Shown here: positions 3,987-59,782 of the stretch, in pieces
How the letters are laid out: the number at the start of each line of letters is the position of its first letter
Position numbering within the stretch: position 1 is the first letter of the stretch
Origin: a virus
Length of the DNA stretch: 64,000 bases
Virus record (IMG/VR): IMGVR_UViG_3300025881_000006
Coordinates: 124,001-188,000 of that record
Direction: 5' to 3' (one strand)
The notes under the pieces: model-generated
The model's input: only the letters and a program-made list of their open reading frames with translations
What the model was told of the DNA's origin: nothing
Databases searched by the model: none
Program-made: the position numbers and the translations under genes

Positions 3987-4331
3987 ATGAGCTTAATCAT
4001 TAACTTTACAATCTTACTATCTTTAATCGCAACATTAGTTGTTATGTATGTACCACAGTATAAACAAGTACCGGCATTAGCAGCAGGTACTAACTTAACT
4101 AATAACCCTAGAAAACATGCTTGGGCTATCTTAGTAGGTGGTTACCTTATTACCTTTATTGCAGTGAATGCATTAGGGGCATATAGTCTACCTATCTTAG
4201 TACATGTAATACTTACTCCTGTTCTAGCAGTGGTGCCTGAGTCTACGTATAGCAAGCTTGCTAGTAAGAAGAAGCTAACTATCATCTCTTATGTAGCACT
4301 AGCTATCGGTGTTGTAATGACACTTGCCTAA
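3987..4331 (+). CDS. Multi-pass membrane protein
   Basis: 114 residues with about four hydrophobic segments: 2-22, 46-64, 68-83 and 97-113, separated by short polar loops. AAAGGAATC precedes the start. No enzyme motif is visible and I do not recognise the family. It is the last plus-strand gene before the convergent junction with the DNA polymerase gene. Confidence 0.55.
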   Translation: MSLIINFTILLSLIATLVVMYVPQYKQVPALAAGTNLTNNPRKHAWAILVGGYLITFIAVNALGAYSLPILVHVILTPVLAVVPESTYSKLASKKKLTIISYVALAIGVVMTLA

Positions 4332-4361
4332 TACGCCTCCAAAGTGTATTGCCGTGACGGC

Positions 4362-4392
4362 GGCATAAGTTACCTACAGTTTGCACTGTAGG
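4362..4392 (-). terminator. Minus-strand hairpin with TTATGCC tail
   Basis: CCTACAGT (4373-4380) and ACTGTAGG (4385-4392) form a hairpin. Read on the minus strand it is followed by TTATGCCG (complement of 4361-4368). This suits 3' ends of transcripts leaving the minus-strand gene at 4456-6342. Confidence 0.6.
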
Positions 4393-4406
4393 CACCTAGA
4401 AACATA

Positions 4407-4446
4407 ACACCTCATACAGTTGTTTAGGCTGTATGGGGTGTTTATG
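4407..4446 (+). terminator. Plus-strand hairpin with TTATG tail
   Basis: ACACC-T-CATACAG (4407-4419) pairs with CTGTATG-G-GGTGT (4429-4441). The tail reads TTATGTATTC and then a T-rich run. With the neighbouring minus-strand hairpin it closes the convergent pair of genes ending at 4331 and 4456. Confidence 0.6.
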
Positions 4447-4455
4447 TATTCTTTT

Positions 4456-6342
4456 TTATTTGTGTTGTTCGTTAAATGCTTCTAACAGAGTAGGCATGTC
4501 AGGCATGTCTAGAACAGTGGTTGCAATGTGTACTGCATTAGTTCTAGGTGCTGTCATGTTCAGTGCTGTTGTGCGATAAAGCTTTTCAGGTTTACCTTTA
4601 ATACGTGATACTTCCCTCCATGTAGTTTCTTTACTACAGTTAAGTGCTATCTCACCGTGCGGGTATGCCCCTGCCACATCTAAGTCAGCTACGTTGATAT
4701 TAAGACTACTTTCAACATCAGGTAGTTCTTCTAGTATCTTTAAGCCACGTTGTGCAGTTAAATGACTAGGTAGTGTAACAATCCAATCCGTCATGTCTAC
4801 AACGTACTTATCTAAATCATCTTCCATAGAATCCGAAGTGCTGGCCATGGCCTTACCTTCTTGCTCTAGTACGACAAAGTGTAGGTCATCGCAAAGACGT
4901 CTAGGTGTAGATGTAAAACGACTTAGGTCTGAGTGTCCTAATAACATCCGCATGGTCTTGATGTCATTATTCTTCTCTTCTAACAGTTCAACACCAATAC
5001 AGTCAAAGATGTTATATACCACATATTCAACACGATGGTCAGTCTGCATGACTTGGTGCCACTTCAAACCTTGATATTGACTAGCAGCATCAAACTTCAA
5101 CTTACCTAAATTCAATTCACGACCTAATATAGCATCCAATGAATAACTAGGCTGTTGCGCTTCAGTTACTCGTAGTCTCTTATACAAACACATTGCATCT
5201 ATAAAGTAGAAACTAGCTGGTGCAAATACAGTGTGCCATAAATCAGCAGGGTGTTGTGATGTCACTTTACCCGTTGCAGTGGTTTTCTGTAGTTGTCCTT
5301 GTTTAAAGTTAAAGCTTCTATAAGCAGGTGGTATACTTGGATCGCAAAAGATGTCTTCAGGATTAATGTGGTGTCTTGTACAAGACTCTAACATTTTATT
5401 AACATCAAACGTAATGTTCCAAATAACAACAAAGTCAGGTTGCCATTCATGCGCTTTAGCAAGTATAGCTCTAGTTGCATCACCGTCGTGTTTAACCGTT
5501 ACTATTTCCAGTTTAATATTACGGTCTTTCTTATACTTAGCCAACTGCTCATCAAAGCACTGTTCTATCTTTGATTTCATATCCGGCATAATAGAAGCAT
5601 ACTGCTCAGTGATAACAACAAAGACTTTATCTTTCATGGTAAGCGAACCTGTAATGATTGGCGTCGCGTGCATTTCTTGAGTCTTCTTAATACTACGTAT
5701 CTTTTCCTGACAGTCATCGATATCACTAGCCAACGAACGCTTCTCACTAGTACGAGTCACTTTACCACTTTCTAATATGGACTGACACTCACTAATGCGT
5801 TTACGAAGTCTGATGATGTTATCTTCTAACTTATACCAACGGTCTTGGTCCTGTTTACTTAGATTCTCAAATACCGTGTTTGTTTCGTAATCCAGTACTG
5901 CCACATCAGATGGATAGGATGCATCGTTGAACTTTTCGAATGATTTAATATATCGATTCTTAATCAACACACTGGACGAAACGTCTGTACCGTATAGGAA
6001 AGGTGACCTTGCCAAGAAAGACAGTCTAGGGTTACTTACAGGCTTCCCTAAGGCGCGTGCTACTACAACACCCATCTTAACTTGAGTGGATGAGAACTTT
6101 TGCAACTTAGAGAGGTCTTCCCATTCTTTTTTATCAGCATGGTTACGATGTTTCTCACGGGTTACAAAGAAGTCCTTCTTATAGTTCTGGATTATCCTTA
6201 AATTAGATTCCCTACTCCCATCTTTTGAATGGATGTGTTCTTTTACTACAACGATATCATTCTCTCGTTGTTTATCAGTGAAGTAACATGCATGTATACA
6301 TTCTACTCCAGCGATATCCTCTTTAGGTATTTTCGTTGACAT
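4456..6342 (-). CDS. Family B DNA polymerase, N-terminal exonuclease part with motif A
   Basis: 628 residues. The three 3'-5' exonuclease motifs are present: DYE (Asp151, Glu153), NITFD (Asn309, Asp313) and Y-x-x-x-D (Tyr443, Asp447). Near residues 550-562 follows DLDVAGAYP, a fit to polymerase motif A (D-x-x-S-L-Y-P). The protein ends about 65 residues later, without motif B (K-x-x-x-N-x-x-Y-G) or motif C (D-T-D). A complete family B enzyme is usually 800-1000 residues. The palm and thumb remainder is not adjacent: upstream is the metallopeptidase gene on the other strand. So this is either one half of a split polymerase or a repurposed exonuclease. An inserted coiled coil lies at about 160-220. 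Confidence 0.78.
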   Translation of the reverse strand: MSTKIPKEDIAGVECIHACYFTDKQRENDIVVVKEHIHSKDGSRESNLRIIQNYKKDFFVTREKHRNHADKKEWEDLSKLQKFSSTQVKMGVVVARALGKPVSNPRLSFLARSPFLYGTDVSSSVLIKNRYIKSFEKFNDASYPSDVAVLDYETNTVFENLSKQDQDRWYKLEDNIIRLRKRISECQSILESGKVTRTSEKRSLASDIDDCQEKIRSIKKTQEMHATPIITGSLTMKDKVFVVITEQYASIMPDMKSKIEQCFDEQLAKYKKDRNIKLEIVTVKHDGDATRAILAKAHEWQPDFVVIWNITFDVNKMLESCTRHHINPEDIFCDPSIPPAYRSFNFKQGQLQKTTATGKVTSQHPADLWHTVFAPASFYFIDAMCLYKRLRVTEAQQPSYSLDAILGRELNLGKLKFDAASQYQGLKWHQVMQTDHRVEYVVYNIFDCIGVELLEEKNNDIKTMRMLLGHSDLSRFTSTPRRLCDDLHFVVLEQEGKAMASTSDSMEDDLDKYVVDMTDWIVTLPSHLTAQRGLKILEELPDVESSLNINVADLDVAGAYPHGEIALNCSKETTWREVSRIKGKPEKLYRTTALNMTAPRTNAVHIATTVLDMPDMPTLLEAFNEQHK

Positions 6343-53596: not shown

Positions 53597-54178
53597 ATGT
53601 CGAGAATCAGTACACTGATAAATCATGCAGGTAGTTCTAAACTAGTAGAGGTTTACGAGGGCGGTAGTATGATTATCGCTGCGGTAAACGAACACCTTAC
53701 TGAATCTAAGCGTTTAACAAACGATGCGACTGGTGACGAAGTAAAGAGTAGACTTCAAGACTTATCGCTAGAAAAGCAAACCACACTCTACACAAAGCAG
53801 TTAGATGTGGAAATAGCACAAGAAGCCAGTTGGGCTCAAATACAACAGGCAATGAACGAAGCGGATGCTAGGGGCGAAACAACCCGTCCAAGAATTGCAT
53901 GGATGATGGCCATCGTAGTAACGATATTCATATTTGGATATACGGTTGGTATGGTGATGGTTATTCATGGTTCTTTAAAGGCAGATGCATTACCCAGTTG
54001 GGAACAGATACTTGTCATCCTAGCAGTACCAACAGCATTATTACGTAGCTACTTTGGCTTGCGTGAATTAGGGAAGCAGAATAGAGCACGAGTTGCTTTA
54101 GGTGCACTTCCTATTGGTAAGTCTTCCATGACTGAATCTATCTCTACTTGGTTAAACAATCGAAATACTAAGCAGTAG
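53597..54178 (+). CDS. Membrane protein with two C-terminal helices
   Basis: 193 residues. A helical cytoplasmic-looking N-terminal region of about 100 residues is followed by hydrophobic segments IAWMMAIVVTIFIFGYTVGM and ILVILAVPTALLRSYFGL, then a basic and polar tail. The short loop between the two segments and the tail resemble some large-phage holin-like proteins, but nothing decisive is seen. Ten bases separate it from the kinase and from the next gene. Confidence 0.5.
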   Translation: MSRISTLINHAGSSKLVEVYEGGSMIIAAVNEHLTESKRLTNDATGDEVKSRLQDLSLEKQTTLYTKQLDVEIAQEASWAQIQQAMNEADARGETTRPRIAWMMAIVVTIFIFGYTVGMVMVIHGSLKADALPSWEQILVILAVPTALLRSYFGLRELGKQNRARVALGALPIGKSSMTESISTWLNNRNTKQ

Positions 54179-57465: not shown

Positions 57466-58224
57466 ATGAAAACATTATTATTTAGTATTTTATTAACAGT
57501 AAGTACACTTACTCAGGCCAGCCTTATCAGTAGTACTGACGACTGGCGTGGTAAATGGGGTGAACAAACAGTAGGTGTTGGCGCTACCATCACTTATAGT
57601 CTTATGGAAACAGGTACTTCATGTGAACGTCTAAGAACTGACTGTACCTTTACCCACTTTGACGATTTCCTACCAACGGGTTGGAATGATATATTAACAG
57701 GTGCATTTAGTGCTTGGTCTGCTGTAGCTGATGTTACATTCGTTGAAGTAGCAGATGAAGGGGAGCAGTTTAACGATGGGTCTAATTCAGGTACTATTCG
57801 AATCGGTGGTCGTGAGTTTGACGGGATTAATGGCACTATCGCTACTGCTTACTATCCGGGTGAGGGTGGTGCTGCAATGGGTGGTGACTTACATCTTGAT
57901 ACTGCTGAACTATGGGACATGGATATATATGGAGACGGGTTTGACTTGTTCACTATCCTTACTCACGAAATTGGACACAACATCGGTTTAAAACATAGTG
58001 ACAATAGAGACTCGTTGCTGTTCGGTCTTTACCATAATAGAACGTATGGCATACAGGACCATGAGGCTGACCTTGCTGCTGCACTATATGGTAGTTCAAA
58101 GTTATCACAACGTGCTAATCAAACTACAGAGGTTTCTGAACCTACAACATTATTACTATTTGCCATCGCATTTCTAGCATTATTTAGAATACGCAATGCG
58201 CCATTTAGATTAATTAAATGTTAA
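57466..58224 (+). CDS. Secreted matrixin-like zinc metalloprotease with PEP-CTERM tail
   Basis: 252 residues. A signal peptide ends near TQA|SL (residue 18-19). The catalytic motif HEIGHNIGLKHS (residues 167-178) has the three zinc histidines and Glu of metzincins, plus the Ser of matrixins. The Met-turn position reads DSLLFGLY, with Leu in place of the usual Met. The C-terminus VSEPTTLLLFAIAFLALFRI, then RN and a basic tail, is a PEP-CTERM-type sorting signal, processed by exosortase in Gram-negative bacteria. The phage therefore seems to make a cell-surface-delivered protease that depends on a host sorting system. Substrates could be surface proteins or biofilm matrix. Confidence 0.85.
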   Translation: MKTLLFSILLTVSTLTQASLISSTDDWRGKWGEQTVGVGATITYSLMETGTSCERLRTDCTFTHFDDFLPTGWNDILTGAFSAWSAVADVTFVEVADEGEQFNDGSNSGTIRIGGREFDGINGTIATAYYPGEGGAAMGGDLHLDTAELWDMDIYGDGFDLFTILTHEIGHNIGLKHSDNRDSLLFGLYHNRTYGIQDHEADLAAALYGSSKLSQRANQTTEVSEPTTLLLFAIAFLALFRIRNAPFRLIKC

Positions 58225-58231
58225 TAATAAC

Positions 58232-58263
58232 AAGGAGGGTCTTTCATATGACCTTCTTTTTTT
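58232..58263 (+). terminator. Canonical intrinsic terminator
   Basis: AAGGAGGGTC (58232-58241) pairs, with G-U pairs, to GACCTTCTTT (58250-58259), followed by a run of T to 58263. No TATGCCGT. Ends the metalloprotease unit. Confidence 0.72.
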
Positions 58264-58281: not shown

Positions 58282-58749
58282 ATGTTACTGGGTTATAAGC
58301 TAGCGGGAGGTATTTCAGTAGTTGCATTAATTGCAGTGGGATATTTAAGCTATCAGGTAGTATTAGGTGAAAAGACTATCGCACAACAAGAGACAACGAT
58401 TGCTAAGTTACAGGCCAGTGTAGATACATTGACTACCTCTAACGAACAAAATCAATCTACAATCGATGCCATACTAACTATCAATGAAGCCAGTGGGGAG
58501 AGAATCAGTGAGCTTACTCAAGAATATAATCAAGCGTATAGGGCTGCTAGTACCTACGAAAGGGAAATCAATGTACTACGTCAGACAGAAGCCATTAGGA
58601 TGCTACAGGAACCTTACGAGCGTGGTAACTACGCTACTACTCGTGTTAACGATGTCCTCTTGCGCATTGCTGGAAGGCCAGCAGGTTCAACAGGTGAAAG
58701 TAAGGATAATACCGACGATTCCAAAGGTAGCTATACCAGCTCCAATTGA
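58282..58749 (+). CDS. Inner-membrane spanin (Rz-like)
   Basis: 155 residues. The N-terminal hydrophobic segment (ISVVALIAVGYLSYQVVL) anchors a periplasmic coiled coil (residues about 28-110, e.g. EKTIAQQETTIAKLQASVDT). A second gene starting at 58571 in another frame encodes an outer-membrane lipoprotein. This nested arrangement is typical of Rz/Rz1 spanins, which fuse inner and outer membrane at the end of lysis. The function call relies on architecture. Confidence 0.78.
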   Translation: MLLGYKLAGGISVVALIAVGYLSYQVVLGEKTIAQQETTIAKLQASVDTLTTSNEQNQSTIDAILTINEASGERISELTQEYNQAYRAASTYEREINVLRQTEAIRMLQEPYERGNYATTRVNDVLLRIAGRPAGSTGESKDNTDDSKGSYTSSN

Positions 58750-59095
58750 ACGCCCTGAGATACTTAAACCTCAAGGGGTAACCGTTACTGCTGAGACTGC
58801 TGCATACTACGCTGAAGCTTGTGAGGCGTTTAGGTCGGTAGGGCAAGAAGATAGTTACGACTTAGATGAAGTGCAGTTACAGTATCCCGGACTGACTCGT
58901 TCTAATTCCTGTGAGTGGTCTATTTATGGTTTAACGGTACAAGGACAGTTAACGTTTGAAAGTCAGTTAAACGTACTGGCCAATTACGCGGATAACCTAC
59001 GGGCTAGGATAGTATATCTAGAATCTATCATAGCAGACATTCAAGCAGCTGCTACTAAACAACAAGAAGCGGTAGAAGACATCGGTAAGGATTAA
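58571..59095 (+). CDS. Outer-membrane spanin lipoprotein (Rz1-like), partly nested
   Basis: 174 residues from ATG 58571, chosen because AAAGGGAAATCA precedes it; a longer in-frame start at 58484 lacks one. The signal sequence NLTSVVTTLLLVLTMSSC ends in a lipobox-like MSSC (Cys31). A proline-rich stretch follows (IPTIPKVAIPAPIERPEILK), as in Rz1 proteins, then a helical C-terminal part. The first 179 bases overlap the Rz-like gene in a +1 frame. It is longer than lambda Rz1 (60 residues), with an added folded C-terminal domain. Confidence 0.75.
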   Translation: MYYVRQKPLGCYRNLTSVVTTLLLVLTMSSCALLEGQQVQQVKVRIIPTIPKVAIPAPIERPEILKPQGVTVTAETAAYYAEACEAFRSVGQEDSYDLDEVQLQYPGLTRSNSCEWSIYGLTVQGQLTFESQLNVLANYADNLRARIVYLESIIADIQAAATKQQEAVEDIGKD

Positions 59096-59419: not shown

Positions 59420-59782
59420 ATGGAAGTATATACATACCAGATAGGTAAGGTGCCCGATATGGGCAATAGTAGCATTGTACAGTACGATGTGACTGTCATG
59501 TCAGGAGATAAGACATTCGCTCCTACGTGGCATTTATTATCAGCTTATAAAGCCGGTACTATAACAGCTGAACAGTACACTACTACTTTTATAAATATCA
59601 TGCGTGAACGATATCTAGATGCACCCCATGAGTTTGCTACTTTAGCAGAACATGAATGCATTGCTTTTGGCTGCTACTGTAAACCAAAAGACTTTTGTCA
59701 TCGCCATCTCTTGGTTGATATATTCTCCGATTATTGCCACAACAAAGGCATCGATTTTCATTATAGCGGGGAGTTAACCTAA
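59420..59782 (+). CDS. DUF488-like conserved phage protein
   Basis: 120 residues. The C-terminal motif FGCYCKPKDFCHRHLLVDI is typical of small phage and bacterial proteins of the DUF488/DUF4326 type (C-x-C-x-P-x-x-C-H). Function of the family is not established to my knowledge. Overlaps the next start by one base (TAATG). Confidence 0.6.
   Translation: MEVYTYQIGKVPDMGNSSIVQYDVTVMSGDKTFAPTWHLLSAYKAGTITAEQYTTTFINIMRERYLDAPHEFATLAEHECIAFGCYCKPKDFCHRHLLVDIFSDYCHNKGIDFHYSGELT

Follow-up and report, generated by a model that had tools for sequence, protein, structure and literature searches.

Among the routes that take proteins to the surface and into biofilms, exosortase sorting is little understood. 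Substrates of the PEP-CTERM/exosortase (EpsH) system combine an N-terminal signal, a single PEP-like motif, a helix, and a basic end; a model of exosortase action has been published, and matches to Pfam families exist for fewer than 10% of PEP-CTERM proteins (PMC1569441). Here we describe a protein that resembles this arrangement, with a signal-peptide-like start and a SEP variant of the motif, and does match a Pfam family, that of the matrixin-type metalloproteases. Unlike the substrates of the EpsH system, it is encoded by a phage, and the phage itself encodes no exosortase (four jumbo phage records were searched).

For the catalytic domain, the described counterparts are karilysin and the catalytic domains of human MMPs (MEROPS M10A), which have the fold and the zinc motif in common with the phage protease. 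Both the Met-turn and the structural zinc site are intact in these enzymes, which have no PEP-CTERM tail. The phage protein has no recognizable pro-domain. The matrixins of the GTDB family of Thalassotalea (L096 to L100) share more with it: they are about 240 to 250 residues long, are 37 to 43% identical to the phage protease end to end, and like it possess a hydrophobic N terminus, a matrixin domain, the motif HExxHxxGxxHS, and a PEP-type tail. The phage protease differs from these proteins in that Leu occupies the Met-turn position, two histidines of the structural-zinc region have been lost, SEP and a longer basic end are present, and the gene resides in a phage genome. Matrixin-like proteins of other virus contigs (L119, L120, L122, L124, and others) contain the matrixin motif and show 19 to 26% alignment identity to the phage protease, and a PEP-CTERM tail was found on none of the metzincins of virus contigs examined, these included. 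Conversely, secreted PEP-CTERM proteins in IMG/VR (L172, L185, L192, L198, L204, L213, and others) have a signal-peptide-like start and a canonical VPEPST tail and are not matrixins. A single phage copy of a PEP-CTERM-tailed matrixin is known.

The phage and its protease gene

The window analyzed here comprises 64,000 nucleotides, positions 124001 to 188000 of an IMG/VR record of 194,866 bases. The record matches Goslar proteins, namely, chimallin (1.2e-33), PhuZ (8.9e-26), two pieces of RNA polymerase beta (2e-117 and 5e-47), and DNA polymerase, and its major head protein is of the phiKZ type (MCP PHROG 3231). Based on chimallin, PhuZ, a multisubunit phage RNA polymerase, and the phiKZ-type head protein, the phage is classified by sequence as Chimalliviridae-like, that is, a nucleus-forming phage resembling phiKZ and Goslar. 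Nucleus-forming phages are known as lytic phages. At a record end in L009 (155-7242, minus strand), similar long and short (113 to 117 aa) genes follow one another in several successive pairs and are probably tail-fiber-related repeats.

The protease gene (57466-58224, plus strand) is delimited as an ORF that starts with ATG, with GAGGT 5 nt upstream, and its GC content is close to that of the phage (0.408 versus 0.402). The 252-residue product consists, in this order, of a signal-peptide-like start, a matrixin domain carrying HEIGHNIGLKHS, and the C-terminal end VSEPTTLLLFAIAFLALFRIRNAPFRLIKC. The initial annotation had described a signal peptide, a zinc motif, and a C-terminal tail in one protein; all three are present, the signal by inspection, and their combination is real and not due to chance. 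Residues 1 to 18 (MKTLLFSILLTVSTLTQA; 57466-57519, plus strand) look by inspection like a signal peptide with probable cleavage after TQA. The hydrophobicity peaks near residue 3, and this segment aligns with the hydrophobic N termini of the bacterial homologs.

The matrixin catalytic domain spans residues 74 to 208 (57685-58089, plus strand). In a search with the M10 model, Pfam Peptidase_M10 (PF00413) matched the protein with 86.6 bits (E = 2.1e-24; cutoff, 24), upholding the earlier claim of a phage-encoded matrixin-like protease. Sequence matches in the PDB are MMPs and karilysin. In Foldseek, the best match of the predicted structure is karilysin (2xs3_A; E = 1.4e-12, probability 1.00, TM scores 0.52/0.77), and MMPs were also matched; the AlphaFold2 model, built on distant virus homologs, is of moderate quality (mean pLDDT, 64.6, with core blocks near 90). 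Since the Met-turn methionine is replaced (see below), the protein is described as a divergent relative of the matrixins, a membership that is proposed only by homology and predicted fold.

Phylogenetic analysis of 19 proteins places the phage protease with L096 and L097 (support 89/83); its branch measures 1.24 changes per site. Despite this branch length, the ORF, the HExxHxxGxxH motif, the hydrophobic N terminus, and the tail have all been retained, which argues for a working gene. Synteny with three jumbo phage relatives in IMG/VR extends up to about 54.2 kb of the window; the protease gene lies downstream of that block, and the three relatives lack counterparts of most genes between about 54.2 and about 62 kb. 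No matrixin was found in the three jumbo relatives searched, which suggests acquired cargo; the gene was apparently taken up from a bacterium long ago and persists as an intact accessory gene.

The C-terminal tail and its bacterial homologs

The PEP-CTERM-type tail comprises residues 223 to 243 (VSEPTTLLLFAIAFLALFRIR; 58132-58194, plus strand), with SEP at 224 to 226 in place of PEP, a helix predicted by the model at 227 to 241, and R241 and R243. About nine residues follow the arginines, up to residue 252, and add R248 and K251 to the basic end. The initial annotation had proposed a PEP-CTERM tail, to be checked with the corresponding model. The outcome is mixed: PF07589 scores 21.3 bits in the genome scan, above its cutoff of 20.7, but 18.3 bits in the whole-protein scan, and TIGR02595 scores 12.4 bits, below its cutoff of 16. 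A second PEP-CTERM match among virus records, in G1178, reaches 22.3 bits, yet reading of three frames revealed no PEP motif, and we rejected it as spurious; thus, an HMM score alone is no proof of a tail. For the phage protein, full-length homology outweighs the borderline model scores and decides the matter: judged by full-length alignment, the tail is homologous to genuine bacterial PEP-CTERM tails, as the annotation had claimed. In addition, the mean alignment score between the phage tail and the tails of full-length bacterial homologs was not equaled by any of 5,000 class-preserving shuffles of the phage tail, in which hydrophobic positions were kept (0/5000).

When used as a single query against viral and genome contigs, the 252-residue protein gave no match. 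Scanning genome contigs for the motif gave unrelated metzincins; one of the genomes concerned, from Thalassotalea, was then taken as the center for a search of its GTDB family. Relatives with E values of 1e-6 or lower were found in 11 of 399 family genomes. Five of these encode end-to-end homologs with 40 to 43% local identity extending into or through the tail, while the other six are more distant; over the multiple alignment, the phage protease is 37 to 41% identical to the five closest homologs. In that alignment, the phage SEP stands opposite VPEP, VSEP, IPTPP, or IPVPP of the bacterial proteins. Three of the four homologs scanned pass TIGR02595 (22.6, 22.5, and 20.5 bits versus 16). The last of these scores belongs to L103, which bears the same SEP variant as the phage (VSEPATL); L096, the homolog with IPTPP, is absent from the matches to this model.

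A wider search of the class yielded more homologs, with tails of the VPAPG, VPLPG, VPVPG, VPIPA, or VPLPA type. An order-wide profile search, in which at most six candidates per genome were scored, found a homolog in at least 1 of 395 genomes, a figure that is unreliable as a frequency. INPHARED gave two weak matches, on contigs of one Acinetobacter record set; the one opened is probably not a phage gene, because its contig is annotated with the bacterial housekeeping genes dnaK, grpE, and purK. In three genomes of the G120 genus (L157, L158, and L159), the gene next to the PEP-CTERM matrixin encodes a secreted protein, about 510 residues long, whose C terminus is shared (DGKDD.L.KYGR).

Exosortase was sought in 12 genomes, namely, the 11 in which the family search had detected a homolog and the Thalassotalea genome G005. 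All 12 gave a match, 11 of them above the cutoff and one (G109) below the family cutoff. Because G005 has an exosortase and no homolog of the protease, the presence of exosortase may be no more than a common trait of the family.

Proposed route and alternative readings

The reading that we consider probable, though by no means secure, is that of a protease of bacterial derivation that is exported and probably passed to the host exosortase. The gene, its domain, its architecture, its homology (the tail included), and the identity of the phage are observed; from these we infer export, exosortase processing, catalytic activity, and substrate as follows. An ancestor of this nucleus-forming phage would have captured the gene for an exported, PEP-CTERM-tailed matrixin like those of the Thalassotalea family and kept it as an accessory gene. 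Synthesized in the infected cell, the protease would be taken through the inner membrane by its signal peptide, presumably by Sec export, and the C-terminal helix would retain it in this membrane with the basic end inside. The host exosortase may then receive the protein and cut at or near SEP. The cleaved protease would end up on the outer surface or in the exopolysaccharide layer, and host surface or matrix proteins could be cut there by the zinc enzyme. Our guess at the likeliest benefit is that the infected cell or its neighbors have their surface or matrix remodeled late in infection. The purposes suggested in the initial annotation, namely, receptor shaving, biofilm loosening, and defense against predators, are likewise conjectural, as is action at the cell surface itself.

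The main rival to exosortase processing is simple membrane anchoring, in which the helix acts as an anchor only, the protease remains bound to the inner membrane on its periplasmic side, and what is left in the tail is the remnant of a sorting signal. The phage tail indeed scores below the TIGR02595 cutoff that homologs pass, has the SEP variant and an extended C-terminal end, and belongs to a phage devoid of exosortase. However, SEP, helix, and basic end have been retained over the long branch, the SEP-bearing L103 passes TIGR02595, and the similarity of the tail to its bacterial counterparts lies well above that of the shuffles; we therefore regard plain anchoring as unlikely, if still a serious contender. 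Even if the protease is passed to the host exosortase, as we favor, a restriction of the host range to exosortase-positive bacteria, as put forward in the initial annotation, does not follow from the tail, since a host devoid of exosortase would probably still have the protein in its inner membrane and since the gene is accessory, being missing in three relatives.

The genes next to the protease suggest another possible purpose. An intrinsic-terminator-like hairpin with a T-run lies directly 3' of the protease gene (58232-58259, plus strand; z, -1.9). It is followed by a gene for an inner-membrane spanin-like (Rz) protein (58282-58749, plus strand; PHROG 89, E = 9.4e-6), a separate protein, and by an overlapping lipoprotein ORF (58571-59095, plus strand), whose longest version begins at 58484. 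The latter has no PHROG match; inspection of its translation (lipobox MSSC) points to a probable outer-membrane spanin (Rz1-like). The protease gene thus adjoins envelope genes, an adjacency that alone does not establish cotranscription. It is conceivable that the product is a lysis-stage envelope protease, periplasmic, that together with the adjoining spanins frees the progeny. This proposal concerns purpose only and is compatible with the other readings of the tail. The Rz-like gene begins 58 nt downstream of the protease gene, and the lipoprotein ORF follows, as would be expected for such a role, but the terminator-like hairpin separates the protease from the spanins, no endolysin was recognized near the protease, the related jumbo phages do not have the protease, and the bacterial homologs are situated outside phage lysis clusters, as judged from the neighbors inspected. 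We hold this purpose to be likewise unlikely. As regards lysins, no match to phiKZ gp144 was found in this genome, where only the tail-associated lysin gp181 has a relative. At 53597-54178 of the window, upstream of the accessory block, a possible lysis gene shows a weak PHROG holin match (E = 0.02) and a match to a family without function. At 59420-59782, a DUF488-N3-type protein is encoded that is conserved in the three jumbo relatives and weakly matches a PADLOC candidate, PDC-M45C.

The catalytic residues bear on whether the protease is active. The zinc motif HEIGHNIGLKHS (residues 167 to 178; 57964-57999, plus strand) includes an HExxHxxGxxH motif at residues 167 to 177 (HEIGHNIGLKH). H167, E168, H171, G174, and H177 are invariant across the alignments, and the catalytic H167, E168, H171, and H177 are thus all intact in the phage protease. 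The Met-turn position is occupied by Leu185 (SLLFG; 58018-58020, plus strand) rather than by the Met of bacterial homologs and MMPs. From the structural zinc site of MMPs (three His and one Asp), His143 alone is clearly left, and in this region the phage protein has GGR (Arg116) and IAT (Thr127) versus GGH and LAH in the bacterial homologs. Replacement of the Met-turn Met by Leu had a minor effect on activity in MMP-2, while the kinetics were compromised in Erwinia protease C (PMC1266349). Because the catalytic residues are intact, whereas Leu185 and the zinc-ligand changes involve substitutions of which the first is tolerated in one enzyme and harmful in another, proteolytic activity is predicted as likely but not certain. 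A relic that is catalytically poor or inactive, with a fading protease function or a role in binding only, would account for Leu185, GGR, and IAT. Given that the catalytic Glu and all three His ligands of the zinc are retained, the near harmlessness of the Leu exchange in MMP-2, and an ORF that is intact on a long branch, we consider such a relic quite improbable, the compromised protease C notwithstanding. Finally, an ordinary phage membrane protein with a chance PEP-CTERM likeness, a reading for which the similar HMM score of G1178 might be adduced, is barely credible and was rejected in view of the whole-length homology to tail-bearing bacterial proteins and the shuffles.

If processing by the host exosortase is true, the phage-supplied substrate would be a natural probe of the exosortase route, and the phage would have a new way to alter the exterior of its host while replicating within a protein-walled nucleus; superinfection, release, and the integrity of the matrix are then predicted to be affected.

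PEP-CTERM proteins on other virus contigs

A scan of IMG/VR for the VPEPST-tail pattern revealed about 14 distinct loci that encode secreted proteins with canonical tails, and 8 of the 9 IMG/VR proteins scanned pass the Pfam PEP-CTERM cutoff. VPEPST-type secreted proteins are encoded at L172:13662-14300, L178:11709-12398, L185:2509-3168 and 4179-4832, L192:5250-5909, L198:3074-3880, L201:8580-9428, L204:4600-5004, and L213:3807-4571. The L213 protein combines a C39-like cysteine-peptidase domain with its PEP-CTERM tail; no catalytic family scored above its cutoff in the other IMG/VR PEP-CTERM proteins scanned. L172 has the phage-type neighbors RecE and RecT, and the other loci are viral mainly by IMG/VR classification.

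Phage-borne exosortase substrates may therefore be recurrent, with the gene in the window as the clearest protease case and not a lone oddity. It is possible, though we advance it with some doubt, that phages of exosortase-bearing bacteria repeatedly carry secreted PEP-CTERM proteins, some of them peptidases, which are placed on the surface or in the matrix via the host exosortase, an undescribed class of phage-host interaction. We found no description of phage-encoded PEP-CTERM proteins in the openly licensed literature, and an earlier report elsewhere is possible; two papers on Microcystis refer to genes of the host only. With about 14 further candidates on virus contigs, the question can be examined across many phages.

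Two minor observations concern these contigs. The protein encoded at L180:4323-5018 is a relative of the L213 protein (31% identity) that seems to be without the cysteine. On the minus strand of L210, near 363-388, a 60-residue lipoprotein-like ORF has a VPEPSTLLLL tail and resembles the layout of a one-piece spanin.
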